A DNA stretch of 53,608 nucleotides, taken from positions 1-53,608 of the IMG/VR virus record IMGVR_UViG_3300025646_000055. One strand, written 5' to 3'. This DNA comes from a virus. The notes beneath the pieces were generated by a model. It ran no database searches, was not told the DNA's origin, and saw only the letters and a list, made by a program, of their open reading frames with translations. Positions 5,322 through 15,828 of this stretch are shown here, in pieces; position 1 is the stretch's first letter, and each line of letters begins with the position of its first letter. Made by a program: the position numbers and the translations under genes.

Positions 5322-5543
5322 ATGGGTTATCGAGAATTATTTAAACATAATGATAAATTATATATCATTAAAGCTAAATCCCCTATTTCATCTTTTATAG
5401 ATAAACAAGGTCAACTCCATTTAAATTTTGTTAAAGAAATGCAAGATTTTTTTAAATGTAACCATACTTTAAAAACTGAATCCCATTTCTTATTTGTTGA
5501 AACAATTGAAGAAATTGAATTTGAAGAACTATGCCACGAGTAG
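5322..5543 (+). CDS. Hypothetical 73-aa protein
   Basis: 73 aa beginning 3 nt after the membrane protein stop. Two short beta hairpins are suggested (KLYIIKAKSP, SHFLFVETIEE), with an acidic end. The last 13 nt overlap the zinc-ribbon gene. No family recognised. Confidence 0.55.
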   Translation: MGYRELFKHNDKLYIIKAKSPISSFIDKQGQLHLNFVKEMQDFFKCNHTLKTESHFLFVETIEEIEFEELCHE

Positions 5544-5719
5544 ATTATGATGAGGTTATTATGGATGAAGCCTTTCATCCTTGTATCCATTGCGGTGAAA
5601 TTGAGTTTTATTGGGATGTTGATATTTATAAATGTTGTGGGTGTGGTGAAATATTAGAAGCACCCAAAACTTATAAACCCAAAGAAAAGAAAAAATTAAA
5701 AAAATTCAAAGACGAATGA
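5531..5719 (+). CDS. Small zinc-ribbon protein
   Basis: 62 aa. C18-x2-C21 and C35-x2-C38 form a zinc-ribbon pair (CIHCGEIEFYWDV ... CCGCGEI), followed by a Lys-rich tail (KPKEKKKLKKFKDE). Such small ribbons commonly bind nucleic acid or a protein partner. It overlaps the previous gene by 13 nt and the next by ATGA. Zinc binding is inferred from the cysteines; partner unknown. Confidence 0.65.
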   Translation: MPRVDYDEVIMDEAFHPCIHCGEIEFYWDVDIYKCCGCGEILEAPKTYKPKEKKKLKKFKDE

Positions 5720-6015
5720 AAGATTTTTTAAAAAAACTATGGCAGTGGTTATTAGACCAAACTGATATTGATGAAATGATTGAAGCTGAAGTTGAAGAAG
5801 TAAAAAAAGAATACAAAGAAACTAAAGCTAAAATTAAAGAAGTTAAAGATGAGGTTGAACACCGAGTTGAAAGAGTAAAAGAAGAAGTTAAGGATGTAGT
5901 TGAAACTGCTCAAAAAGTAAAATCACAAATTGATGATATTAAAGGTGCAGTTAAAGGTGAGGTTAGAAAAGGTAGAAAACCTTCTACAAAAAAACCAAAA
6001 GTAAAAAAGAATTAA
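5716..6015 (+). CDS. Charged coiled-coil / amphipathic repeat protein
   Basis: 99 aa. An N-terminal hydrophobic-aromatic patch (FLKKLWQWLLDQ, 4-15) is followed by an 11-residue-like amphipathic repeat of Glu/Lys with Val/Ile (about 20-78), then a basic tail rich in Lys and Pro. The repeat resembles apolipoprotein/LEA-type amphipathic helices that lie on membranes or form long coiled coils. It is last in the operon that starts at 4142, before the next early promoter. Function unknown. Confidence 0.6.
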   Translation: MKDFLKKLWQWLLDQTDIDEMIEAEVEEVKKEYKETKAKIKEVKDEVEHRVERVKEEVKDVVETAQKVKSQIDDIKGAVKGEVRKGRKPSTKKPKVKKN

Positions 6016-7906: not shown

Positions 7907-8155
7907 ATGGATATAGAAGTTTTAGCGGATAAATACGAAGAATTAGAAAATCTAAAAAATCAAATAAACCAAGAAGAAATGGAAAAAGAAAATTTAATTA
8001 ATGAATTAGTTTTTTTAACTCAAAAACGTGATGAATTATGGGAATACCATCCAAACAATCCTGAGGGGAAAAACTTAATTAAAGTTGTAAAAGAATTAAG
8101 TGAACGAATTGATCAAATAAATGATCAATTAATTAAAAAAGAAAGTCAAAAATAA
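7907..8155 (+). CDS. Coiled-coil protein
   Basis: 82 aa, almost entirely heptad-like (YEELENLKNQINQEEMEK; ELSERIDQINDQLIKK), interrupted by a short HPNNPEG turn near 49-55. It should form an antiparallel helical hairpin. Second gene of a two-gene operon. No family recognised. Confidence 0.6.
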   Translation: MDIEVLADKYEELENLKNQINQEEMEKENLINELVFLTQKRDELWEYHPNNPEGKNLIKVVKELSERIDQINDQLIKKESQK

Positions 8156-8192
8156 TTTGGATATTAGTTAACTTTTTTGTATATTCACATAT
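8156..8192 (+). promoter_or_regulatory. Early-type promoter
   Basis: TTTGGATATTAGTTAAC then TTTTTTGTATATTCACAT, a weaker match to the early consensus. It reads into a leader RNA or small ORF that ends at the terminator 8367-8396. Confidence 0.6.
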
Positions 8193-8214
8193 GTATAATT
8201 AAATAAATTAAAAG

Positions 8215-8337
8215 GTGAAACATTTACTCAACATATCAATTCAAGAACGTTTAGCAGTAACCGCTGTTATGACAACGTCATGGGATTATAGCAGAGGGTT
8301 TAATCCGAAGCAATTTCCCGGGTTTAATATAAGTTGA
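8215..8337 (+). CDS. Possible 40-aa leader peptide (GTG start)
   Basis: GTG 8215, preceded by AAAAG, opens a 40-codon frame ending at TGA 8335-8337; the peptide runs MKHLLNISIQERLAVTAVMT to GFNPKQFPGFNIS. It could be a real small protein, or the transcript (about 8195-8396) could be a non-coding RNA: CCCGGGTTT repeats before the terminator could compete with the terminator stem in an attenuator-like way. Low confidence. Confidence 0.35.
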   Translation: MKHLLNISIQERLAVTAVMTTSWDYSRGFNPKQFPGFNIS

Positions 8338-8366
8338 GTATTTTTAAAATATAAAAACTAAAATTT

Positions 8367-8396
8367 AAACCCGGTCCTAAAAAACCGGGTTTTTTT
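8367..8396 (+). terminator. Intrinsic terminator
   Basis: AAACCCGG (8367-8374) pairs with CCGGGTTT (8385-8392), followed by a T run. It lies between an early promoter and the first array tRNAs. Confidence 0.85.
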
Positions 8397-8411
8397 GTTC
8401 TTTAATATAAA
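8397..8411 (+). promoter_or_regulatory. boxA-like element
   Basis: GTTCTTTAATATAAA directly after the terminator and directly before tRNA-Pro. It resembles rRNA-leader boxA (E. coli TGCTCTTTAACA) and three other copies in this window. Confidence 0.4.
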
Positions 8412-8412
8412 A

Positions 8413-8488
8413 TCTAGATGCGATCCATTGGTGTGGTTACCTCACTTGGACTGAGGGTTATTGAGAGTTCGAGTCTCTCCATCTAGAC
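8413..8488 (+). tRNA. tRNA-Pro(TGG)
   Basis: Acceptor TCTAGAT/ATCTAGA, anticodon stem CCTCA/TGAGG with loop CTTGGAC, anticodon TGG. T arm GAGAG-TTCGAGT-CTCTC. Canonical geometry; 3' CCA is not encoded. Confidence 0.93.
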
Positions 8489-8492
8489 ATAT

Positions 8493-8565
8493 GCCTTCGT
8501 AGCTCAGTTGGTAGAGCTCCTGATTTGTAATCAGATGGTCATCGGTTCGAATCCGGTCGAAGGCT
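8493..8565 (+). tRNA. tRNA-Thr(TGT)
   Basis: Acceptor GCCTTCG/CGAAGGC; loop TTTGTAA with anticodon TGT; T arm ATCGG-TTCGAAT-CCGGT. The outermost anticodon-stem pair is C-A, otherwise canonical. It starts 4 nt after tRNA-Pro. Confidence 0.93.
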
Positions 8566-8598
8566 CAAATGTTGAGTCATATCAACGTCATACCAGAT

Positions 8599-8633
8599 AT
8601 TTGGTTATATAAATATATATTCGTATATTTACC
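8599..8633 (+). promoter_or_regulatory. Early-type promoter of main tRNA array
   Basis: TTTGGTTATATAAATATA then TATTCGTATATTTACC. It is followed by a boxA-like site and the long run of tRNAs from 8694. Confidence 0.7.
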
Positions 8634-8667
8634 AAGTTGAAAAATGATAAGATAATTCAACAAAAAA

Positions 8668-8689
8668 GTTCCTTGACATCTTGAAAAAC
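8668..8689 (+). promoter_or_regulatory. boxA-like antitermination element
   Basis: GTTCCTTGACATCTTGAAAA lies between the array promoter and its first tRNA. The same GTTCTTTgAcATcTTgAAAA motif recurs at 13311 and 14783, each just after an early promoter region and just before stable RNAs. Confidence 0.55.
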
Positions 8690-8693
8690 CTGA

Positions 8694-8780
8694 GGAGGCG
8701 TGGCAGAGTGGTCGATTGCACCGGTCTTGAAAACCGGAGGTCGCGAAAGCGGCCCGTAGGTTCGAATCCTACCGCCTCCG
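8694..8780 (+). tRNA. tRNA-Ser(TGA)
   Basis: Acceptor GGAGGCG/CGCCTCC; anticodon stem CCGGT/ACCGG, loop CTTGAAA; class II variable arm GTCGCGAAAGCGGC; T arm GTAGG-TTCGAAT-CCTAC. Fully canonical. Confidence 0.95.
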
Positions 8781-8788
8781 CAATGAAA

Positions 8789-8878
8789 TGAATGTGCCGA
8801 CATAATGGCGGTATTGGTGCAACTCCAATTAGTCAGTGAAAAAACGAGCCACAAGTAGTTCAAACCTACCACATTCAT
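8789..8878 (+). tRNA. Aberrant tRNA-like gene
   Basis: Acceptor TGAATGT/ACATTCA and a T-arm hairpin GTAG-TTCAAAC-CTAC. The middle hairpin ATTGG-TGCAACT-CCAAT would give CAA, but with G at position 33; reading it as a 9-nt loop gives GCA (Cys). The variable region is about 26 nt, and its GCCA can pair with TGGC of the D region. Tertiary D-loop GG is missing. Isotype uncertain; may not be charged. Confidence 0.5.
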
Positions 8879-8885
8879 TAATTAT

Positions 8886-8959
8886 TGTCCTGTCGTATAA
8901 TGGGAGTACATCTGATTTTGGTTCAGAGAATGGAGGTTCGAATCCTTCCGGGACAACCA
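8886..8959 (+). tRNA. tRNA-Gln(TTG) with encoded CCA
   Basis: Acceptor TGTCCTG/CGGGACA, anticodon stem TCTGA/TCAGA, loop TTTTGGT (anticodon TTG), T arm GGAGG-TTCGAAT-CCTTC. Discriminator A is followed by CCA; most other tRNAs here lack an encoded CCA. Confidence 0.92.
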
Positions 8960-9180
8960 ATTCTTAAACTGATGGAGCCCGAAAGGGAACGTAGAAGCGG
9001 TAGGATAAATTTGCAAAGAGGCCTACAACGTTTGCAACTCAAATTTGGTTTAAGACTTCTAAAAGTTACTTGTAACGATAGAAACCCGCGAGATGAGTTC
9101 ATCTCTCCTAACTCTCACTTAATTGTGATTAAAACACGCGAGATAATGGTTAGGATTTCAGAACTCCGTTACATTTAACC
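8960..9180 (+). ncRNA. Structured spacer RNA with pseudoknot
   Basis: No protein or tRNA. GTAGG (9000-9004) pairs with CCTAC (9022-9026), while GCAAA (9013-9017) pairs with TTTGC (9031-9035): an a-b-a'-b' pseudoknot. AAATTT (9007-9012) can also pair with AAATTT (9041-9046). A second domain is closed by TGTAACG (9071-9077)/CGTTACA (9167-9173), with CCTAAC/GTTAGG inside and a hairpin GAGATGA/TCATCTC. From 9181 to 9267 I see nothing clear. Confidence 0.55.
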
Positions 9181-9267
9181 AGGCTAGACTGATTAACTGC
9201 AGTAAAGGTTTAGAATGATGCCCTCGGATGCTGCCGCACCTATGGGTAGTTTTAGAAGTAAAATATA

Positions 9268-9345
9268 TTGCGATGGCGGTACAGAGACGTTCTCATGAGA
9301 CGTATTGGGTAGCTCCCCTCCGAGGTTCGATTCCTCAATCGCAAC
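9268..9345 (+). tRNA. tRNA with CAT anticodon and long variable arm
   Basis: Acceptor TTGCGAT/ATCGCAA; anticodon stem ACGTT/GACGT with loop CTCATGA (CAT). The D arm is short and irregular (GGCGGTACAGAG). The variable region folds as GGG-TAGCT-CCC, a class II arm, which no ordinary Met or Ile2 tRNA has. T arm GAGG-TTCGATT-CCTC with a C-A base pair position. Confidence 0.6.
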
Positions 9346-9374
9346 AAATCTTGCAAGACTAGGTTGATAACCTT

Positions 9375-9444
9375 GTATAAGTCGTCTAAATATGTAGGAC
9401 ACCGGCGGGGTCGGAGATTTGGGTTCGAGTCCCATTCTTATACA
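9375..9444 (+). tRNA. Aberrant tRNA-like gene (Pro GGG?)
   Basis: Acceptor GTATAAG/CTTATAC, D arm GTCT/GGAC, T arm GGG-TTCGAGT-CCC. The anticodon hairpin is only CCG-GCGGGGT-CGG: a 3-bp stem, and C instead of U at 33; positions 34-36 would read GGG. Likely degenerate or non-canonical. Confidence 0.45.
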
Positions 9445-9458
9445 AAACAATCAAATTT

Positions 9459-9531
9459 GACTTCGTAGCTTAGCAGGTAGAGCACTCCGCTTTTAACGGA
9501 GGGGTCGTGAGTTCGAGTCTCACCGGGGTCA
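9459..9531 (+). tRNA. tRNA-Lys(TTT)
   Basis: Acceptor GACTTCG/CGGGGTC, anticodon stem CTCCG/CGGAG with loop CTTTTAA, T arm GTGAG-TTCGAGT-CTCAC. Canonical. Confidence 0.94.
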
Positions 9532-9534
9532 CAA

Positions 9535-9642
9535 GCTGTTCTGCATCAGAAGTGCTGGTTAGTGAAACACCTAATCGATGAGCCCATCAAAATGTGAGTG
9601 GTTTTTTACTGTGGCGGTTTCCACTCAAATTAAAAACACAGC
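9535..9642 (+). ncRNA. Closed structured spacer RNA
   Basis: GCTGT (9535-9539) pairs with ACAGC (9638-9642), so the whole spacer between tRNA-Lys and tRNA-Leu is closed. Inside are hairpins TTCT/AGAA, GGTTAG/CTAATC, GATG/CATC and GAGTGG/CCACTC. No ORF of note and no tRNA arms. Confidence 0.5.
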
Positions 9643-9648
9643 CCACCT

Positions 9649-9731
9649 GCCCGAGTGTTGGAATTGGTAGACAAAGCGGTCTTAGAAACCGTGGCCTTAA
9701 TGGCTTGAGAGTTCGAGTCTCTCCTTGGGTA
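9649..9731 (+). tRNA. tRNA-Leu(TAG)
   Basis: Acceptor GCCCGAG/CTTGGGT, anticodon stem GCGGT/ACCGT, loop CTTAGAA (TAG), class II variable arm, T arm GAGAG-TTCGAGT-CTCTC. Canonical Leu. Confidence 0.92.
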
Positions 9732-9741
9732 CAATTGTTAA

Positions 9742-9807
9742 AGCAGTTATAGTAAAGAACACGTGATAACTTTACTATAAGCGGTACATATGTAAAAGAA
9801 AACTGCT
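9742..9807 (+). ncRNA. Closed structured spacer RNA
   Basis: Outer helix AGCAGTT (9742-9748)/AACTGCT (9801-9807); inner 9-bp helix ATAGTAAAG (9749-9757)/CTTTACTAT (9770-9778) stacked directly on it. A palindromic TACATATGTA fills the 3' side. No tRNA arms. Confidence 0.5.
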
Positions 9808-9831
9808 GGATGTGCCGAACAGTTAGAATTT

Positions 9832-9919
9832 AGTCAGGTGGCGTAATTGGTAACGTAGGTGGTTCAATTCCACAATACCCATGGTTAGAGTGTTACAGGT
9901 TCGAATCCTGTCCTGACTA
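9832..9919 (+). tRNA. tRNA-Leu(CAA)
   Basis: Acceptor AGTCAGG/CCTGACT, anticodon loop TTCAATT (CAA, with U33) on stem GGTGG/CCACA, class II variable arm, T arm ACAGG-TTCGAAT-CCTGT. It is the most regular member of the AGTCAGG Leu family here. Confidence 0.88.
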
Positions 9920-9999
9920 CCTAGCCTTTGTTTGGGGCAAGCGCTCGTACACGTTGCGGGCAAGTCAATACTAAACACACACAGCTGGGAAGACAGCGG

Positions 10000-10108
10000 A
10001 GTCAGGTGGTGGAATTGGCAGACACAAACCCTTTAAGGCGCCAGGGGTTGTAACAGATGAGTTCTCATCCAATAGTGCAGATTACAGGTTCGAATCCTGT
10101 CCTGACTA
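10000..10108 (+). tRNA. tRNA-Leu(TAA)-like with 13-nt anticodon loop
   Basis: Acceptor AGTCAGG/CCTGACT, D arm GTG/CAC, anticodon stem AACCC/GGGTT enclosing TTTAAGGCGCCAG (13 nt). Removing the palindrome GGCGCC would leave TTTAAAG, a normal Leu(TAA) loop. The variable region is also long and holds GATGA-GTTC-TCATC. 109 nt in total. Confidence 0.65.
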
Positions 10109-10114
10109 CAAAAT

Positions 10115-10271
10115 GTTGGTATCCAAGTGGGTGAAGTAGGGGATATACATTTAAATAAAACACGAACGGTGAAAATATGGAATCGGCCGATAAACATAGA
10201 AGTAACAACGAAGCCCGTGACACCAAGTAGATGCCTCCACGTGGCGGTGTTGGATAACCAACCAAATCTAC
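10115..10271 (+). ncRNA. Closed spacer RNA with crossing helix
   Basis: GTTGGTATCC (10115-10124) pairs with GGATA-A-CCAAC (10252-10262), ten pairs with one bulge. Inside, ACACC/GGTGT. GTAGAT (10227-10232) can pair with ATCTAC (10266-10271) outside the closing helix, which would make a pseudoknot. Confidence 0.5.
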
Positions 10272-10280
10272 GATTAAAAT

Positions 10281-10377
10281 AGTCAGGTGGCGGAATTGGT
10301 AGACGCTTTTAGGGATTAACTCACCAGAGGGTTGTATCTGTTATGGATACGTACAGGTTCAAATCCTGTCCTGACTA
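10281..10377 (+). tRNA. tRNA-Leu(CAG)-like, insertion before anticodon stem
   Basis: Acceptor AGTCAGG/CCTGACT and the standard Leu D arm. About 10 extra nt follow the D stem; then AACTC/GGGTT encloses ACCAGAG, giving CAG but with C at position 33. Variable arm GTATC/GATAC; T arm ACAGG-TTCAAAT-CCTGT. Confidence 0.6.
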
Positions 10378-10381
10378 CAAT

Positions 10382-10456
10382 GCACCTTTAGCTCAGTTGG
10401 TTCAGAGCGTTACCCTTACAAGGTAGATGTCGGTGGTTCGAATCCATCAAGGTGCA
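10382..10456 (+). tRNA. tRNA-Val(TAC)
   Basis: Acceptor GCACCTT/AAGGTGC, anticodon stem TTACC/GGTAG, loop CTTACAA, T arm GGTGG-TTCGAAT-CCATC. Canonical. Confidence 0.92.
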
Positions 10457-10467
10457 CAATTTATTCA

Positions 10468-10536
10468 ACCTTTAGTCGAAGTGGCTTAAGACAATCGGCG
10501 GGAGCCGATAAAACATGGGTTCGAATCCCATAAGGT
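10468..10536 (+). tRNA. Aberrant tRNA-like gene with 5-bp acceptor
   Basis: Acceptor only ACCTT/AAGGT; D arm GTC/GAC; T arm ATGGG-TTCGAAT-CCCAT. The anticodon hairpin is ATCGG-CGGGAG-CCGAT with a 6-nt loop and no U33. GGG or GGA could be the anticodon. Probably not a normal elongator tRNA. Confidence 0.45.
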
Positions 10537-10585
10537 AAAAAGCACAACCTGTTTCCGGTTAATGTGAAATAGAATAAAGGTAAAA

Positions 10586-10607
10586 CAACCAGAGTCGACG
10601 CTGGTTG
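10586..10607 (+). other. Spacer hairpin
   Basis: CAACCAG pairs with CTGGTTG around AGTCGACG, ending exactly one base before the next tRNA. It may set processing of the tRNA 5' end. Confidence 0.45.
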
Positions 10608-10706
10608 GACCGAGTGGTGAAATTGGTAAACACAAAGGGTGCAGAGCCCTTGGAAGTGGAATGACGTCTGAAGCTTCTGTTGTAGGTTCGAGTCCTACCT
10701 TGGTCA
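10608..10706 (+). tRNA. tRNA-Leu(CAG)-like with long variable arm
   Basis: Acceptor GACCGAG/CTTGGTC, D stem GTG/CAC, anticodon stem AAGGG/CCCTT with loop TGCAGAG: CAG anticodon but G at 33. The variable region is about 28 nt, closed by GAAG/CTTC. T arm GTAGG-TTCGAGT-CCTAC. Confidence 0.65.
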
Positions 10707-10713
10707 CTATTAT

Positions 10714-10796
10714 TGGAGTGTTGAGCAATTGGTTGGCTCGGCAGACTGTAAATCTGTTGCCTTACGGCCTTGGGGGTTCGAGTCCCTCCGCTCCAA
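10714..10796 (+). tRNA. tRNA-Tyr(GTA)
   Basis: Acceptor TGGAGTG/CGCTCCA, anticodon stem GCAGA/TCTGT, loop CTGTAAA, class II variable arm, T arm GGGGG-TTCGAGT-CCCTC. Canonical. Confidence 0.93.
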
Positions 10797-10798
10797 CA

Positions 10799-10847
10799 AA
10801 TCTTAGGAGTAATTAACCTAAGACTGACAGGTTCGAAACTGTCGATT
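10799..10847 (+). other. tRNA-like fragment (two hairpins)
   Basis: CTTAGG (10802-10807)/CCTAAG (10817-10822), then a T-arm-like hairpin GACAG/CTGTC with loop GTTCGAAA (10831-10838), flanked by short AATC/GATT complementarity. It could be a remnant or a minimal tRNA-like decoy. Confidence 0.35.
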
Positions 10848-10942
10848 GATAGTAGTGTAGTGGGCACACTGCTCCCGGGGCGCTCGGTAAAATGAGGCTG
10901 TCCAGGAGCGGGGGTAAAGAGGTTCGAATCCTCCCATATCAA
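10847..10942 (+). tRNA. tRNA-Asp(GTC) with 22-nt internal insertion
   Basis: D stem GTGT/ACAC, one linker base, anticodon stem GCTCC (10871-10875)/GGAGC (10905-10909), and a perfect loop CTGTCCA (10898-10904, anticodon GTC, U33 present) adjoining the 3' strand. The 22 nt at 10876-10897 separate positions 31 and 32. Acceptor TGATA/TATCA plus two mismatches; T arm GAGG-TTCGAAT-CCTC. A normal tRNA-Asp is at 13832. Confidence 0.7.
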
Positions 10943-10946
10943 CTAA

Positions 10947-11100
10947 GGCTTTAGTCTATCCGAGACGCTAGTAAGGTTGGAGGATAAAGGTGGACGGCAA
11001 TCCACACACTTTTGAATTTGATACACTAGAAGTAGACTCGCCTCTTTGCCGAGAGGTGTTAAAAAATGGTTTCGTGGGCGAGTTTCCATCACAAAAAGCC
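10947..11100 (+). ncRNA. Closed structured spacer RNA
   Basis: Closing helix GGCTTT (10947-10952)/AAAGCC (11095-11100). Inside: AGTCTA/TAGACT, CTAGT/ACTAG, hairpin GTGGA/TCCAC, and CTCGCC/GGCGAG around a CCTCT/AGAGG hairpin. TATCC (10957-10961) can alternatively pair with GGATA (10982-10986). It fills the whole gap between tRNA-Asp and tRNA-Arg. Confidence 0.55.
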
Positions 11101-11110
11101 GGCCCACCAT

Positions 11111-11184
11111 ACATTGGTAGCTCAATTGGATAGAGCACTTCACTACGGATGAAGGGGTTGAGGGTTCGAGTCCTTCCCAATGTA
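11111..11184 (+). tRNA. tRNA-Arg(ACG)
   Basis: Acceptor ACATTGG/CCAATGT, anticodon stem CTTCA/TGAAG, loop CTACGGA, T arm GAGGG-TTCGAGT-CCTTC. A34 would need editing to inosine by the host deaminase to read all CGN codons. Confidence 0.93.
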
Positions 11185-11188
11185 CAAA

Positions 11189-11292
11189 GTTCTATTTGGT
11201 GTAATTAGGCAACACTTCGGTTCGAATCCGAATGCTTTATACAATAAAGTAACAGAGAGGTTGGATGTGGGTTCGAGTCCCACAATAGAACG
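11189..11292 (+). tRNA. tRNA-Ser(CGA), T-loop-like anticodon loop
   Basis: Acceptor GTTCTAT/ATAGAAC, D stem GTG/CAC, anticodon stem TTCGG/CCGAA with loop TTCGAAT: anticodon CGA, and identical to a T-loop sequence. The variable region is about 34 nt, with CTTTAT/ATAAAG plus about 15 extra nt. T arm GTGGG-TTCGAGT-CCCAC. Confidence 0.75.
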
Positions 11293-11297
11293 AGTTT

Positions 11298-11370
11298 GGT
11301 ACTGTAGCTCAGTTGGTAGAGCACCTGATTGAAGCTCAGGGTGTCAGCAGTTCGAATCTGTTCAGTACCA
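11298..11370 (+). tRNA. tRNA-Phe(GAA)
   Basis: Acceptor GGTACTG/CAGTACC, anticodon stem CCTGA/TCAGG, loop TTGAAGC, T arm AGCAG-TTCGAAT-CTGTT. Canonical. Confidence 0.93.
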
Positions 11371-11377
11371 CTTTTAT

Positions 11378-11450
11378 ACATCTATGGTGTTAACGGTTAG
11401 CATGATGGTCTCCAAAACCAGAGGTAAGGGTTCGAATCCTTTTAGATGTG
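11378..11450 (+). tRNA. tRNA-Trp(CCA)
   Basis: Acceptor ACATCTA/TAGATGT, loop CTCCAAA on stem TGGT/ACCA, T arm AAGGG-TTCGAAT-CCTTT. Discriminator G, as in bacterial tRNA-Trp. Confidence 0.93.
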
Positions 11451-11456
11451 CAATAT

Positions 11457-11528
11457 TCCCCTTTAGCTCAGCGGTAGAGCAGAGAGCTGTTAACTCTAAG
11501 GTCGTTGGTTCGAATCCAGCAAGGGGAG
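11457..11528 (+). tRNA. tRNA-Asn(GTT)
   Basis: Acceptor TCCCCTT/AAGGGGA, anticodon loop CTGTTAA on stem AGAG/CTCT, T arm GTTGG-TTCGAAT-CCAGC. Canonical. Confidence 0.93.
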
Positions 11529-11530
11529 CA

Positions 11531-11613
11531 AATACTTTTGGAAAAGTTGGCACTAGCACCACAGTTGCAAATGTAGGACTAGGTGTAGGTTCGAATCCTA
11601 CTATGAAGTGTTT
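11531..11613 (+). tRNA. Degenerate tRNA-Cys(GCA)-like gene
   Basis: AATACTT pairs with AAGTGTT, but TATG intervenes between T stem and acceptor. The T arm is perfect (GTAGG-TTCGAAT-CCTAC). The middle hairpin CCACA/TGT-A-GG closes GTTGCAAA, reading GCA. A normal tRNA-Cys is at 12481, so this copy may be decaying or specialised. Confidence 0.4.
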
Positions 11614-11647
11614 ACCACCGAGATGCTGCCGAGCTGAGGAGGTGGTT
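11614..11647 (+). other. Spacer hairpin
   Basis: ACCACC pairs with GGTGGT across a 21-nt loop rich in purines. It sits between the Cys-like gene and tRNA-Ile; no T run follows. Confidence 0.45.
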
Positions 11648-11672
11648 AAGAAATATCCCTAAATACGGACCA

Positions 11673-11746
11673 CGGTGTGTGGCCAAGATGGTTAAGGCAC
11701 CTCGCTGATAACGAGGAAATCGGAGGTTCAAATCCTCCCTCACCGA
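11673..11746 (+). tRNA. tRNA-Ile(GAT)
   Basis: Acceptor CGGTGTG/CTCACCG with one T-T mismatch, anticodon stem CCTCG/CGAGG, loop CTGATAA, T arm GGAGG-TTCAAAT-CCTCC. Canonical. Confidence 0.92.
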
Positions 11747-11779
11747 CTCGTGTAAGAGCACTGTGCTCTAACATAACCT

Positions 11780-11853
11780 GGCGAGGTAGCTCAGTTGGTT
11801 AGAGCGTTGGAGTCATAACCCAAAGGTCATAGGTTCGATTCCTATTCTCGCTA
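11780..11853 (+). tRNA. tRNA-Met(CAT), elongator type
   Basis: Acceptor GGCGAGG/TCTCGCT, anticodon loop GTCATAA on stem TTGG/CCAA, T arm ATAGG-TTCGATT-CCTAT. Pair 1-72 is G-T, not the C-A of initiators. Confidence 0.88.
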
Positions 11854-11865
11854 CAAATAACTTTC

Positions 11866-12045
11866 CGCGACATGGAGAAGTGGGCAAGTTTTGATTTAAG
11901 TAATCAGAGTACTTTGGTTTCTTAAGAAAGGATTAGATTTTAAATGGTGGTGGAGTACTACACCTAATGGAAGTTACTAATCTTAGAAACGTATCTCGCC
12001 GGGGGCATGACCCGGAGATCGTAGGTTCGAATCCTACTGTCGCAA
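11866..12045 (+). tRNA. tRNA-fMet(CAT) interrupted in the D loop
   Basis: Acceptor CGCGACA/TGTCGCA has the C1-A72 mismatch of bacterial initiators, and the anticodon stem CCGGG/CCCGG has the three G-C pairs typical of them. D stem GAGA pairs with TCTC 120 nt downstream: about 104 nt (near 11888-11991) are inserted in the D loop. The anticodon loop is GGCATGA (CAT, G at 33). T arm GTAGG-TTCGAAT-CCTAC. I see no second initiator candidate with both hallmarks. Confidence 0.7.
11888..11991 (+). ncRNA. Structured insertion inside tRNA-fMet
   Basis: About 104 nt. AGGATTAG pairs with CTAATCTT (near 11928 and 11977), enclosing a GGTG/CACC hairpin; TTTCTTAAGAAA is self-complementary; two AGTACT copies can pair. 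Too short for a group I or II intron and no conserved catalytic motif seen. Whether it is excised is unknown. Confidence 0.45.
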
Positions 12046-12047
12046 CT

Positions 12048-12264
12048 AAAAGAACAACCTATCGCTCTACGGAGAGGAAACTCAGGACGGCACTGCTTAA
12101 GGTAGGAGATTCAAATTATAGGACCTGGATGTTGCCTATAATCCCTGAATCTCTTATACTACCGAGGCCGCAACACAAAACAGTCTATAAGGGTGAGCAG
12201 CTTGGATAAGGTAGTGGCAACAAGGTAAATGATAGGATAAACAGAATCCTGGTTATGTTCTTTT
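12048..12264 (+). ncRNA. Large closed spacer RNA (217 nt)
   Basis: AAAAGAACA (12048-12056) pairs with TGTTCTTTT (12256-12264), extended by ACC/GGT. A long interior hairpin has GGTAG/CTACC, GAGATTCA/TGAATCTC and ATTATAGG (12115-12122)/CCTATAAT (12135-12142). It fills the gap between tRNA-fMet and tRNA-His. No convincing ORF. Confidence 0.6.
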
Positions 12265-12271
12265 AAATATG

Positions 12272-12346
12272 GTGTCTGTAGTGTTAGTGGAATAAGCACG
12301 TCAGTTTGTGGTTCTGATAGGATGAGTTCGAATCTCATCAGACACA
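12272..12346 (+). tRNA. tRNA-His(GTG)
   Basis: Acceptor GTGTCTG/CAGACAC with a further G just 5', as expected for G-1. Anticodon loop TTGTGGT on stem TCAG/CTGA. T arm GATGA-TTCGAAT-type, with loop sequence GTTCGAATC. Canonical apart from a T-T pair at the top of the anticodon stem. Confidence 0.88.
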
Positions 12347-12351
12347 CTAAG

Positions 12352-12478
12352 AAGAGGCAGTTCAAGCTGTAGTTGAGAGGTAGAGTGTATTAATGTCTGA
12401 AAAAGGGTTTATAGTAGGATGGCGTCACTCATTGCACTCAACCAGAAACCCTGCAACACACGGAGCCTCTTTTTTTTT
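12352..12478 (+). ncRNA. Pseudoknotted RNA ending in a terminator
   Basis: Outer helix AAGAGGC (12352-12358)/GCCTCTT (12465-12471) runs into T8, so it doubles as an intrinsic terminator. Inside is an H-type pseudoknot: GTTGAG (12372-12377)/CTCAAC (12437-12442) crossed by GGGTTT (12405-12410)/AAACCC (12446-12451). CAG/CTG makes a small 5' hairpin. No ORF or tRNA arms. Confidence 0.65.
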
Positions 12479-12480
12479 AT

Positions 12481-12551
12481 GGTTCTTTGACCGAGTGGTT
12501 AGGTGAAGGTCTGCAAAACCTTTTACATTGGTTCGAATCCAATAAGAACCT
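12481..12551 (+). tRNA. tRNA-Cys(GCA)
   Basis: Acceptor GGTTCTT/AAGAACC, anticodon stem AAGGT/ACCTT, loop CTGCAAA, T arm ATTGG-TTCGAAT-CCAAT, discriminator T. Canonical. Its first 11 bases resemble boxA by chance. Confidence 0.93.
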
Positions 12552-12564
12552 CAATTATTAATTT

Positions 12565-12648
12565 GGAGAGTAACCCTTGATGGTGATAGGGCTTGCCTGC
12601 TAAGCAATGTGTACATTCGTGTATATGGTTCGAATCCATTGCTCTCCG
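12565..12648 (+). tRNA. tRNA-Ser(GCT)
   Basis: Acceptor GGAGAGT/GCTCTCC, anticodon stem CTTGC/GCAAT, loop CTGCTAA, class II variable arm GTACATTCGTGTAT, T arm ATGG-TTCGAAT-CCAT. Canonical. Confidence 0.92.
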
Positions 12649-12664
12649 CTAAAAAGGATAAGTC

Positions 12665-13120
12665 ATGAAAATATTTAAACGAGTTAACGGACAAAAGGTT
12701 ACGGATATTGTTGAATATACAATTGATATTATCCGTAAAGACCCATATGTAGAAATACATATAGGAACAGATTCTCAAAGTGAAGGTGAATGGACAACTT
12801 ATGTTACAGCTATTGCATATAGATTTGGTACAAGAGGTGTTCATTATATTTACCACAAAGAACGAGTTCCAAGAATACGTGATAGATACACTAAACTATT
12901 TAAAGAAGCTGAATTAACAATTGAATTAGCTGAATGGTTTACTAAGCGTGTTAAGAGTGTAAGAATAGAATTAGATTTTGATTACAATAAAGATGAAAGA
13001 TATTGGTCTCAAAAATTAATTAGTTCTACAGTAGGTTGGGCACAGGCTTTAGGATACAAAGTTAATGTGAAACCAGTTAAACAAATTGCTACAAGAGCAG
13101 CAGATTATCATTGTAGATAA
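12665..13120 (+). CDS. DUF458/YkuK-like RNase H-fold protein
   Basis: 151 aa. HIGTDSQSEG (about 32-41) is the signature of the DUF458 (YkuK) family, whose RNase H-like fold uses the Asp of GTDSQ as a metal ligand; further acidic residues (ELDFDYNKDE, about 101-110) fit. It begins 17 nt after tRNA-Ser and lies inside the tRNA array, so it must share the tRNA transcript. A nuclease acting in RNA processing or turnover is an attractive guess; activity of this family is not established to my knowledge. Host spore or DNA-repair links known for YkuK do not help here. Confidence 0.75.
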   Translation: MKIFKRVNGQKVTDIVEYTIDIIRKDPYVEIHIGTDSQSEGEWTTYVTAIAYRFGTRGVHYIYHKERVPRIRDRYTKLFKEAELTIELAEWFTKRVKSVRIELDFDYNKDERYWSQKLISSTVGWAQALGYKVNVKPVKQIATRAADYHCR

Positions 13121-13131
13121 TTTAAAAAAAA

Positions 13132-13165
13132 CTTGGATATTTAAGATATTGTTCGTATATTTACA
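13132..13165 (+). promoter_or_regulatory. Early-type promoter
   Basis: TTGGATATTTAAGATATTG then TTCGTATATTTACAT, ending 5 nt before ATG 13170, so the transcript has almost no leader before the 43-aa gene. It also feeds the second half of the tRNA array. Confidence 0.75.
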
Positions 13166-13169
13166 TATA

Positions 13170-13301
13170 ATGAAAAACAAAGAAAAAACTAAAGAAAAAA
13201 AAGAAGATTTTGGATATTTTGATAGGTATAAAAATCAAAATAACCCCAAAACTAAAAAAGAAACATTAGAAATTAGTTTATTTTCTAGATATAAAGATTA
13301 A
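13170..13301 (+). CDS. Hypothetical 43-aa charged peptide
   Basis: 43 aa, MKNKEKTKEKKEDFGYFDRY to SLFSRYKD. The open frame extends upstream to 13086, but that part overlaps the promoter and the DUF458 gene, so I place the start at 13170. It is very rich in Lys/Glu and carries FGYFDRYK and LFSRYKD repeats at each half. The mRNA would be near-leaderless. No family recognised. Confidence 0.5.
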   Translation: MKNKEKTKEKKEDFGYFDRYKNQNNPKTKKETLEISLFSRYKD

Positions 13302-13310
13302 TTTATCTAG

Positions 13311-13331
13311 GTTCTTTGAAATCTTGAAAAA
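13311..13331 (+). promoter_or_regulatory. boxA-like antitermination element
   Basis: GTTCTTTGAAATCTTGAAAA, 10 nt after the 43-aa gene and just before tRNA-Arg. Second of the three strong copies. Confidence 0.55.
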
Positions 13332-13337
13332 ACCAAT

Positions 13338-13410
13338 GCTTCCATGGTGTAACGGATGAGCACAAGGCCCTTCTAAGGCTTTAGTTTAGGTTCGAATCCT
13401 AATGGAAGTA
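13338..13410 (+). tRNA. tRNA-Arg(TCT)
   Basis: Acceptor GCTTCCA/TGGAAGT, anticodon stem AGGCC/GGCTT, loop CTTCTAA, T arm TTAGG-TTCGAAT-CCTAA. Canonical; reads AGA, a common codon in this genome. Confidence 0.93.
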
Positions 13411-13415
13411 CAGCT

Positions 13416-13556
13416 GTTATCTGAACTAGCACTAGGACGATAACTACCATCAGAGGAAGCTAGTCTCATGGATGGTCCTGTGGGTTGTGACCAGTACACA
13501 TAAAAAGACTCCCACCAAATAGAGTAGGTGACTGCGTTTTTGCATAAAGCTCTATT
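13416..13556 (+). ncRNA. Pseudoknotted spacer RNA
   Basis: H-type pseudoknot: GTTATC (13416-13421)/GATAAC (13439-13444) crossed by ACTAGC (13425-13430)/GCTAGT (13459-13464). CCATC/GATGG and GTGGG/CCCAC hairpins follow; the 3' end is AATAGAG (13518-13524)/CTCTATT (13550-13556). It spans the gap between tRNA-Arg and tRNA-Glu. Confidence 0.6.
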
Positions 13557-13562
13557 ATTTAT

Positions 13563-13636
13563 CGCCCGTTCGTCTAGCGGTCTAGGACATCGCCCTTTCA
13601 CGGCGAAGATCACGAGTTCGAATCTCGTACGGGTGA
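13563..13636 (+). tRNA. tRNA-Glu(TTC)
   Basis: Acceptor CGCCCGT/ACGGGTG, anticodon stem TCGCC/GGCGA, loop CTTTCAC, T arm ACGAG-TTCGAAT-CTCGT. Canonical. Confidence 0.93.
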
Positions 13637-13645
13637 CTATAACAT

Positions 13646-13733
13646 AGCAAGGATGAAGGCTGGTGGTGATGCCTCAGTAGTCTCATAAGCTACTACCTCA
13701 ATGAGGGTGCGGGTTCGATTCCCGCCCATGCAA
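13646..13733 (+). tRNA. tRNA with CAT anticodon and class II-like arm
   Basis: Anticodon stem GTAGT/GCTAC with normal loop CTCATAA, T arm GCGGG-TTCGATT-CCCGC. The acceptor AGCAAGG/CCATGCA has two A-A mismatches, including 1-72. The variable region CCTC-AAT-GAGG forms an extra arm not found in ordinary Met or Ile2 tRNAs. The D stem has a bulged A. Confidence 0.65.
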
Positions 13734-13738
13734 CTAAT

Positions 13739-13823
13739 GCACTTGTGGTGAAATTGGTAGACACGCGGGACTTAAAATCCCGTCTCTATTGCAGAGGTGC
13801 CAGTTCGAGTCTGGCCAGGTGCA
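13739..13823 (+). tRNA. tRNA-Leu(TAA)
   Basis: Acceptor GCACTTG/CAGGTGC, loop CTTAAAA on stem CGGGA/TCCCG, class II variable arm, T arm GCCAG-TTCGAGT-CTGGC. Canonical, unlike the AGTCAGG Leu family. Confidence 0.93.
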
Positions 13824-13831
13824 CATATATT

Positions 13832-13904
13832 GGTCCTATGGTTGAATGGCTACAATGCCACCCTGTCACGGTGCGCGGTACGGGTTCGAATCCCGTTAGG
13901 ACCG
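13832..13904 (+). tRNA. tRNA-Asp(GTC)
   Basis: Acceptor GGTCCTA/TAGGACC, loop CTGTCAC on stem CACC/GGTG, T arm ACGGG-TTCGAAT-CCCGT, discriminator G. Canonical and uninterrupted. Confidence 0.92.
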
Positions 13905-14030
13905 CAACTTAATACCGAATCGCGTTAAAGGTGAAGTAGATAACGTGTGGTGAGTTTGGAAGGTCTCACATAAAACAAAACCAAAACCTTAAGTCTACCA
14001 CGAAGAGGTGTTATCGGTGACCTCTTCATT
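13905..14030 (+). ncRNA. Spacer RNA with loop-loop pseudoknot
   Basis: GAAGAGGT (14002-14009)/ACCTCTTC (14020-14027) is an 8-bp hairpin whose loop GTTATCGGTG can pair with upstream GATAAC (13939-13944) and ACCGA (13914-13918). A second hairpin GTGAG/CTCAC lies between. It occupies the tRNA-Asp to tRNA-Ala gap. Confidence 0.55.
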
Positions 14031-14033
14031 TAT

Positions 14034-14107
14034 GGGCTGGAATGTTCCAAGGCTGGCGAATCTCCCTTGCACGGAGATTGTGGTGAGTTCGATTCTCACC
14101 TGGTCCA
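14034..14107 (+). tRNA. tRNA-Ala(TGC)
   Basis: Acceptor GGGCTGG/CTGGTCC (several G-T pairs), anticodon stem TCTCC/GGAGA, loop CTTGCAC, T arm GTGAG-TTCGATT-CTCAC. The G3-T70 wobble needed for Ala charging is present. The D arm is irregular. Confidence 0.85.
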
Positions 14108-14108
14108 C

Positions 14109-14198
14109 ATAAAAGTTGCGCAGTACGCGATTGACCGGAGTGTTTGAGACGTCCTTCCTCCAAGGCATCGATGGGTAACCAATCCCTTCCACTTTTAT
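14109..14198 (+). ncRNA. Closed spacer RNA exactly between two tRNAs
   Basis: ATAAAAGT (14109-14116)/ACTTTTAT (14191-14198) closes the entire spacer, leaving 1-2 nt to tRNA-Ala (ends 14107) and tRNA-Gly (starts 14201). GATTG/CAATC and GGAG/CTCC pair inside. tRNA end-processing alone would release it. Confidence 0.6.
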
Positions 14199-14200
14199 AC

Positions 14201-14272
14201 GCGGATGTAGTATAGTGGCTATTATGCCTGATTTCCAATCAGGAGATGTGAGTTCGATTCTCTCTATCCGCT
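14201..14272 (+). tRNA. tRNA-Gly(TCC)
   Basis: Acceptor GCGGATG/TATCCGC, anticodon stem CCTGA/TCAGG, loop TTTCCAA, T arm GTGAG-TTCGATT-CTCTC. Canonical. Confidence 0.93.
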
Positions 14273-14277
14273 CAAAA

Positions 14278-14350
14278 GCGAGATTAGCTCATTTGGTAGA
14301 GCGTCTGCTTGCCAAGCAGAAGGTGGTCGGTTCGAATCCGATATCTCGCT
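14278..14350 (+). tRNA. tRNA-Gly(GCC)
   Basis: Acceptor GCGAGAT/ATCTCGC, anticodon stem TCTGC/GCAGA, loop TTGCCAA, T arm GTCGG-TTCGAAT-CCGAT. Canonical. Confidence 0.94.
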
Positions 14351-14352
14351 CA

Positions 14353-14457
14353 AAAAGGTAATAAACTCAAAACCGAGCGATGCTTTAAAAAAGATTCACA
14401 ACTTTAGAGGTCGTTGAGTTGGGTGGTAGTAAATGTGAATACCACCTATTACCTTTT
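14353..14457 (+). ncRNA. Best-supported pseudoknotted RNA
   Basis: An 11-bp perfect closing helix AAAAGGTAATA (14353-14363)/TATTACCTTTT (14447-14457). Inside, AACTCAA (14364-14370)/TTGAGTT (14414-14420) is crossed by ATTCACA (14394-14400)/TGTGAAT (14434-14440), two 7-bp helices, and the second strand sits in the loop of hairpin GGTGG (14422-14426)/CCACC (14442-14446). It lies between tRNA-Gly and tRNA-Pro with 2 and 6 nt of flank. Confidence 0.7.
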
Positions 14458-14463
14458 ATTTAT

Positions 14464-14539
14464 AGGGTAGTAGAGGAGTCAGGTTTATCTCGCTACATTT
14501 GGGATGTAGAGCACGCTGGTTCGAATCCAGTTTACCCTA
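14464..14539 (+). tRNA. tRNA-Pro(TGG), second copy
   Basis: Acceptor AGGGTAG/TTACCCT, D stem GAG/CTC, anticodon stem CTACA/TGTAG with loop TTTGGGA, T arm GCTGG-TTCGAAT-CCAGT. Different body from the Pro tRNA at 8413. Confidence 0.9.
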
Positions 14540-14547
14540 CCATAGTA

Positions 14548-14613
14548 TGGTCTAACAAATGCCTGTGCCAGAATGTCGACCAAAATGCAGGGATATGTAG
14601 GTAATGACTTACC
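14548..14613 (+). ncRNA. Small spacer RNA, possible pseudoknot
   Basis: TGGTC (14548-14552)/GACCA (14578-14582) crossed by a short CCTG/CAGG, followed by hairpin GGTAA (14600-14604)/TTACC (14609-14613). Weaker than the other elements. Confidence 0.4.
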
Positions 14614-14621
14614 ATTTCACA

Positions 14622-14695
14622 GGTCCTTTAGCTCAGATGGTTAGAGCAACTGACTCATAATCAGTAGGTCGTAGGTTCAAATCCTACAAGGACCA
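14622..14695 (+). tRNA. tRNA-Ile2 or Met (CAT)
   Basis: Acceptor GGTCCTT/AAGGACC, anticodon stem ACTGA/TCAGT, loop CTCATAA, T arm GTAGG-TTCAAAT-CCTAC. The body looks like Ile2(CAT), which needs lysidine from the host TilS, but Met cannot be excluded. Confidence 0.9.
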
Positions 14696-14724
14696 CTAAA
14701 AAATTAAAGGTTTTTTCAAGATAA

Positions 14725-14757
14725 TTTGGATGTTTGAAATTTTGTTTGTATATTTAT
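14725..14757 (+). promoter_or_regulatory. Early-type promoter of the giant RNA
   Basis: TTTGGATGTTTGAAATTTTG then TTTGTATATTTATG, followed within 30 nt by a boxA-like site and then no protein gene for about 1 kb. Confidence 0.7.
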
Positions 14758-14782
14758 GTATAATAAAGATTTAAAACAAAAC

Positions 14783-14800
14783 GTTCTTTAACATATTAAA
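14783..14800 (+). promoter_or_regulatory. boxA-like antitermination element
   Basis: GTTCTTTAACATATTAAA; GTTCTTTAACA is the closest match in the window to rRNA boxA. It begins the leader of the giant structured RNA. Confidence 0.6.
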
Positions 14801-14804
14801 AAAT

Positions 14805-15756
14805 TTAGGGTTGCTTGAAATCCTTTCAGATTATTATTGACGCGTAACAGTCCGGCTGACGATTATGTAATAGTTTGATAAAGAGTAATGAGCCGTAAGG
14901 CTACGAAAGGGGATAGTCTCACACTACCTCGCTTGGCAACAAGTTCATTCAAGCAAGCAACGTTCTAAGCTCTACCTAAGAGCGCTGTCGGACCAACCGG
15001 CAGATAAGGAGAAAGTTAGTGGAATAAGTCCCTTAGGAAAGGATAAAACCAGAGCCGATCGGTGAGGTTAAAATGGGTAGCTCCATGCTTATCCATGCTA
15101 AACTAACAAAACCTGAACAGAATAAGTTGTAGAATATGAGTTTGAGTCTCGCTAAGACAAAGGCAAGTATTCATTATAAGAGGTGAAAGGGTAATATATA
15201 TAACTCCCGGAGTAATCTTGAAGTAAGGCACAGTAGGATTAGCAGTCCGAAACGCAGTTGGCGTGTCATATTTTGTAGCTCAAAAGGTTATGAAGTGACT
15301 GTTGGGGCACGTCAAAGTGAGTTAAATAACTTGTAAGTTAGCTCAGTTGGTAGAGCATCTGTCTCTTAAACAGAATGTCGAAGGTTCAACTCCTTCACTT
15401 ACTATATGAATAATATAGAATAAAAAACGCAAAGCCCCCAACGATAGTGAAAAACAAATCACCTAATTCCGTACTCAAAAGAGAATACGGAGCTTTCAAA
15501 ACTCGCAAGGTAGAGAAAGTTTGATTGGATTTCGCACCTAATTTCTTAGCGGAAATGAATGGCTCGCAAGGTCAGGGGAAGAAAAAAAATCGAGTAGTTT
15601 CACTATGACATGAGAAATGCCACTCATTAAAAAAGGCGGTGATGTTGCTAGACTTCCTTGGTGGGAGTGGATAAGTTTTTAACAAGTAGGTTTGCCCCTA
15701 TTTGGTACGAAAATGAAGGTAGTAATATATAACGTATAATCTCAGCGTTTTTTTTA
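14805..15756 (+). ncRNA. Giant structured RNA with embedded tRNA-Lys
   Basis: About 950 nt with no plausible ORF, between an early promoter/boxA and a T8 run. Helices seen: ATCCTTTC (near 14819)/GAAAGGGGAT (near 14905); GNRA-type hairpin AGCC-GTAA-GGCT; GCTCT/AGAGC; GTCGG/CCGGC; GTTGGGG (15301-15307)/CCCCAAC (15436-15442), which encloses exactly tRNA-Lys(CTT); ATAGTGAAA (near 15443)/TTTCACTAT (near 15598); TCCGTA/TACGGA. AAAAAACGC (15422-15430) can pair with GCGTTTTTT (15747-15755) to form the 3' end. Size, phage tRNA-array setting and embedded tRNA recall the ornate GOLLD/ROOL class, but I cannot align it to either. Confidence 0.6.
15332..15404 (+). tRNA. tRNA-Lys(CTT) inside the giant RNA
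   Basis: Anticodon stem TCTGT/ACAGA, loop CTCTTAA, D stem GCTC/GAGC, T arm GAAGG-TTCAACT-CCTTC. Acceptor TGTAAGT/ACTTACT has a T-T mismatch at 1-72. It is enclosed by a 7-bp helix of the host RNA. Confidence 0.85.
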
Positions 15757-15828
15757 ATTATTCTTCTATAAAACCATTTATACTCAATTTCCTACGAGTT
15801 ATATTTGGTTTATTTTTTTTTCTCTAGT

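Follow-up and report, generated by a model that had tools for sequence, protein, structure and literature searches.

The window analysed here, i.e., the whole stretch of DNA under study, is an IMG/VR record of a virus, 53,608 bp long, that carries, between about 8.4 and 15.7 kb, an array of 29 tRNAs called by ARAGORN, with a GOLLD RNA at its end. This work concerns a short part of the plus strand of that array, which holds an intact tRNA-Met with the anticodon CAT (11780..11854, from ARAGORN), then, after 11 nt, a split initiator-tRNA-like element whose two halves and D-loop insertion occupy 11866..12045, then a likely miniature RNase P RNA resembling class A (12046..12270) and finally tRNA-His (12272..12347, found by ARAGORN and Rfam). 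ARAGORN calls no gene at 11866-12045; the element is recognised by stem pairing in the sequence, with a shuffle test in support.

The split element

The 5′ part of the element (11866..11886, plus strand, placed by gap-free alignment) comprises one acceptor strand, U8 and G9, the D-stem strand GAGA and a complete 8-nt D loop (AGTGGGCA), whilst the 3′ part (11994..12045, plus strand) comprises the D-stem strand TCTC, the anticodon arm, the T arm, the other acceptor strand and A73. The insertion (11887..11993, plus strand) lies between them, on the 3′ side of the D loop. An earlier sequence-only reading had reported this split and put the gap at about 120 nt; the D-stem strands (11875-11878 and 11994-11997) are in fact 115 nt apart and, as 8 of these nucleotides are the D loop, the insertion itself is 107 nt long. 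The acceptor strands, CGCGACA (11866-11872) and TGTCGCA (12038-12044), form a C1×A72 mismatch and six Watson-Crick pairs; the anticodon stem CCGGG/CCCGG has G-C pairs at 29-31:39-41; the T arm is GTAGG-TTCGAAT-CCTAC; and A73 at 12045 is followed by CTA, so CCA is not encoded. The mismatch and the three G-C pairs are the initiator hallmarks that the earlier reading had noticed, and they hold on the plus strand, together with a third initiator feature, A11-U24, seen in the alignment.

Without 11887-11993 the element is a 73-nt RNA, which is the length of a Chryseobacterium initiator, and it aligns to the latter without gaps. All 20 stem pairs of this form are Watson-Crick, the C1×A72 mismatch coming in addition, and at five of them (5-68, 6-67, 7-66, 13-22 and 27-43) both sides differ from the Chryseobacterium initiator while the pairing is kept. 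The elbow bases U8, A14, G15, G18, G19, C48 and TTCGAAT are retained as well. In all these respects, and in its CAT, the element is like a bacterial tRNA-fMet; it is unlike one in its 107-nt insertion, where a functional bacterial initiator would have an uninterrupted D arm, and in its anticodon loop.

The earlier reading had named unrelated halves as the finding that would overturn it. The halves do belong together: a 5′ half offering six acceptor and four D-stem pairs came up in only 4 of 20000 dinucleotide shuffles, the split-tRNA motif had 0 matches in 100 shuffled windows and every stem pair is intact. Folding energy decides nothing here, since the tRNA-constrained fold (−50.3 kcal/mol) is close to the free minimum (−51.7), and the argument for the tRNA form is one of pairing and homology.

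The anticodon loop, GGCATGA, had gone unnoticed. It keeps CAT, but G33 replaces U33, so that the standard loop expected of an initiator is missing, and three of the seven loop bases are changed. The loop is CTCATAA in 152 of the 153 distinct initiator genes examined in the loci, a count that depends both on the fixed search pattern and on a sampling weighted towards Bacteroidota. As U33 is a general feature of tRNAs and has been lost here, decoding by the split element seems unlikely, as far as its sequence can tell.

The insertion had been described as structured, which is borne out by two predicted hairpins, but weakly so (z −1.7), since 21 of 500 shuffles fold equally well. The view that it is no known self-splicing intron stands: over 11866-12275, family models matched neither a group I or II intron core (E up to 10) nor a known self-cleaving ribozyme, and the insertion junctions lack a bulge-helix-bulge motif, showing only a 4-nt match without the flanking helices. 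The insertion also has no Rfam match, and nothing significant by BLAST against 50,697 phage records. Its origin by fusion of tandem initiators was considered and rejected, there being no recognisable tRNA pieces and no T-loop motif inside it. The rarity attributed to such insertions is upheld within the sets covered, as a D-loop-split initiator pattern had zero matches in viral_contigs, and no such initiator was found in a bacterial genome scan (genome_contigs) among the matches listed and examined, at least 177 of which resemble tandem intact initiators and at least 2 of which lie in unrelated sequence; for bacteria, the rarity applies to these examined matches. Across these searches the split tRNA is present in one genome only, and the window had no second match to an initiator-like gene.

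A likely RNase P RNA downstream

The sequence at 12046-12270 matches the class A RNase P RNA model RF00010 from end to end (model positions 1-367; 44.1 bits, E 1.3e-12 in a 410-nt search), at a score below the curated cut-off of 100 bits. It is like class A RNase P RNA in this end-to-end match, in having the P1 (12047-12056 with 12256-12265), P2 and P4 helices and in the conserved regions around P4, with regions I and V present; it is unlike it in its length (about 225 as opposed to about 370 nt), in its score (44 against a cut-off of 100), in the absence of several helices and in its location in a phage tRNA array. When 8 kb were searched with Rfam at E<1, what the 410-nt search found had been missed, probably owing to filters that are applied less strictly to short sequences. 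A search of whole records with RF00010 gave zero matches and missed even the window's own copy, which makes it an uninformative negative.

Two patterns built on the spacing of P4 retrieved 13 and 18 viral contigs, in overlapping sets, most with tRNA genes nearby. Two of the 18 are doubtful by eye (L276, which looks coding, and L278, which looks like an RNase P RNA of another build); with these set aside, about 17 viral contigs remain that carry RNase P RNA-like sequence, L140-L152, L275, L277, L279 and L280 among them, some of them near-identical. In a six-member alignment, with two near-identical sequences and the structure drawn on the window's copy, P2, P3, P4 and P7 pair in 6/6, changes on both sides of a pair occur in P2, P4 and P7, and the covariation score exceeds those of all 500 shuffles and of all slid versions. 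P1 is misaligned there (47% of cells paired) and was found by pair search in nearly all members. No RnpA gene was found in the 18 viral records searched, which are possibly incomplete, and the host could supply RnpA. BLAST of the RNase P RNA against the 50,697 phage records returned nothing significant and one weak lead, the 735-kb uncultured phage LR756501.1 (L272), where, judged by eye only, conserved parts of RNase P RNA are present in unannotated sequence. Altogether, 12046-12270 is likely an RNase P RNA by its sequence, with putative catalytic activity. An open-access library, without bioRxiv preprints and with few subscription papers, yielded no phage said to encode an RNase P RNA; priority is not thereby established.

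The joints between this RNA and its neighbours, also unnoticed before, are tight. P1 follows the discriminator base of the split tRNA at a distance of 1 nt, and tRNA-His starts 7 nt after the 3′ strand of P1. The same 1-nt and 7-nt distances occur in L275 and L280, and the 1-nt upstream joint in L279, where in each case an intact tRNA-Met, the counterpart of that at 11780..11854, directly adjoins the RNase P RNA; as the three contigs have one common RNase P RNA sequence, they amount to about one independent comparison for the upstream joint. L275 has an intact initiator-like tRNA elsewhere, too. The downstream joint is found repeatedly: a tRNA begins 2-8 nt after P1 in L144, L141, L145/L151, L152, L149 and L146, the tRNA at this joint being variously one for His, Lys, Arg, Trp or Met, and in about 10 of the some 17 further viral contigs the downstream tRNA abuts the RNase P RNA. 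Close upstream joints are confined to the window, L275/L279/L280 and L140/L150 (7 nt), most other members having none.

Discussion

The combination of kept stems, a changed loop and a position filled by a tRNA in relatives suggests that what is retained in the split element is a tRNA-shaped processing signal. We tentatively favour, at somewhat less than even confidence and from sequence comparison, the interpretation of the element as an initiator-tRNA relic retained as RNA-processing punctuation that frames the phage RNase P RNA. The acceptor/T-arm half and the elbow bases would have been kept, the D loop would carry an extra 107-nt arm, and the decoding loop is apparently unusable. In a polycistronic transcript of the array, a cut at the 3′ end of the split tRNA, by RNase Z or by trimming, would release the RNase P RNA at its 5′ end, and a cut by RNase P before tRNA-His would release it at its 3′ end. 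Next to an RNase P RNA, the element could plausibly have a function without being spliced or taking part in decoding. Of the two possibilities raised in the sequence-only reading, removal of the insertion by some processing step and an unusual tRNA-like molecule, the latter fits better, because U33 was lost while every stem was kept, and removal is less supported.

In favour of this punctuation are the 20 of 20 stem pairs kept, five of them changed on both sides, alongside three changed loop bases out of seven; the RNase P RNA match directly downstream, with covariation in its family; the joints of 1 and 7 nt, as in relatives; the downstream tRNAs at 2-8 nt from other viral RNase P RNAs; the conserved spacers between tRNAs elsewhere; and the comparable gene order in yeast mitochondria. 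Against it, the element occurs in one genome only and its upstream joint has about one independent comparison, a second mark is not obviously needed 11 nt after an intact tRNA-Met, and the insertion itself is left unaccounted for. The single occurrence, the degenerate anticodon loop and the weakly structured insertion would equally suit a young pseudogene, i.e., an initiator gene broken by the insertion and now drifting, with its stems intact by recency and its closeness to RNase P RNA incidental. This is a serious rival and quite possibly correct, the more so as the array has many irregular tRNA-like elements and a relative has an intact initiator elsewhere; the order of events is undatable from one genome. 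Still, the change of three of the seven loop bases without the breaking of a single stem pair, not even in the D stem that spans the insertion, speaks against it, and so does a 1-nt joint to the RNase P RNA identical to that of relatives.

The remaining explanations are a good deal less probable. Removal of the insertion by some nuclease and ligase could in principle yield a working initiator, the insertion being clean, its 73-nt remainder normal and bearing the initiator hallmarks, and no other initiator-like gene having been matched in the window; two other phages with the RNase P RNA even encode an RtcB ligase. None was found, however, in the window, possibly itself a fragment, and G33 in place of U33, the lack of a group I/II core or known ribozyme and the absence of bulge-helix-bulge make this improbable. 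It is just as doubtful, if not slightly more so, that the tRNA shape serves as a scaffold protecting or presenting the 107-nt arm as the working part of a small RNA, e.g., a decoy or regulator: in the constrained fold the arm is predicted to exit from the D loop on its outer side and to fold by itself with the tRNA kept, but it is hardly more stable than shuffles (z −1.7), and relatives on which its conservation could be assessed were not found. That the element is an artefact of assembly, or that unrelated sequences pair here by chance, is very improbable. The element is on a single contig, and relaxed scans of tRNA arrays do yield false long-D-loop pairings between neighbouring tRNAs; unlike in these, no separate D arm belongs to its 3′ part, the pairing arose in so few shuffles, and the downstream joint is the same as in relatives.

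Group I introns in bacterial tRNA genes sit in the anticodon loop. The genes that have them reportedly include that of a cyanobacterial initiator tRNA, and they are like the split element in being interrupted bacterial-type tRNA genes; the insertion differs in being too short and in having no group I match. Archaeal D-loop introns and the permuted genes of the red alga Cyanidioschyzon, which give working tRNAs by way of a bulge-helix-bulge (PMC3978253), resemble the element in being interrupted in the D loop near position 20/21 (PMC3978253), whereas the element is viral and lacks that motif. In yeast mitochondria, RNase P RNA is transcribed between tRNA-fMet and another tRNA, in the fMet-RPM1-Pro unit (PMC3797045), where its gene likewise stands between those of an initiator and another tRNA (PMC3797045); there, however, the initiator tRNA works, and the likeness is one of arrangement, not of descent.

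A broader proposal, possible but on balance unlikely, is that phages of this group carry their own miniature RNase P RNA in their tRNA arrays, which would mature itself by cutting off the tRNA fused to its 3′ side, and that in the window an initiator tRNA became a non-decoding, extra-armed element defining its 5′ end. Phage tRNA arrays are usually read as sets for codon supply; this one also holds what is likely an RNase P RNA, which tRNA structures frame with single-nucleotide precision. If true, a phage would possess a natural ribozyme of very small size for the processing of tRNAs, and its split initiator tRNA would show, as a test provided by nature, which tRNA half persists once decoding is dispensable.

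The array has further peculiarities. Within its GOLLD RNA (15258-15748; 162.8 bits, cut-off 150) lies a tRNA-Lys (15332-15404). Compared by portal protein, the closest relative is L003 (71%), which misses the whole tRNA/GOLLD array, and the flanks at about 8.1 and 15.8 kb (about 8140-15798) are 264 bp apart there (5515-5778), around one tRNA-Leu. A spacer of about 150 nt (13412-13560; L006 7170-7320, and others) has 83-89% identity in several viral contigs and no Rfam match, and it fits exactly between tRNAs which differ from contig to contig; another inter-tRNA spacer (10109-10280) has 88-94% identity over most of its length in L062 and L048. Given such conserved, unannotated spacers fitting between tRNAs, it may be a general rule in these arrays that tRNAs frame non-coding RNAs.

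A conserved tRNA-like element at 9268-9345, also found at 8158-8240 of L006 and in L130-L139, has the anticodon CAT in a loop of ordinary appearance (CTCATGA); it lacks a D arm, an additional hairpin precedes its T arm, and the acceptor pairs of its copies co-vary. Leu-like elements at 37-161, 412-505, 10000-10108 and other places, and in L006 and L010, have in common the acceptor AGTCAGG/CCTGACT and the T arm ACAGG-TTCGAAT-CCTGT, with cores that are replaced or expanded and often miss the standard anticodon arm; in L010 and L018, versions of these carry extra T-arm-like hairpins.
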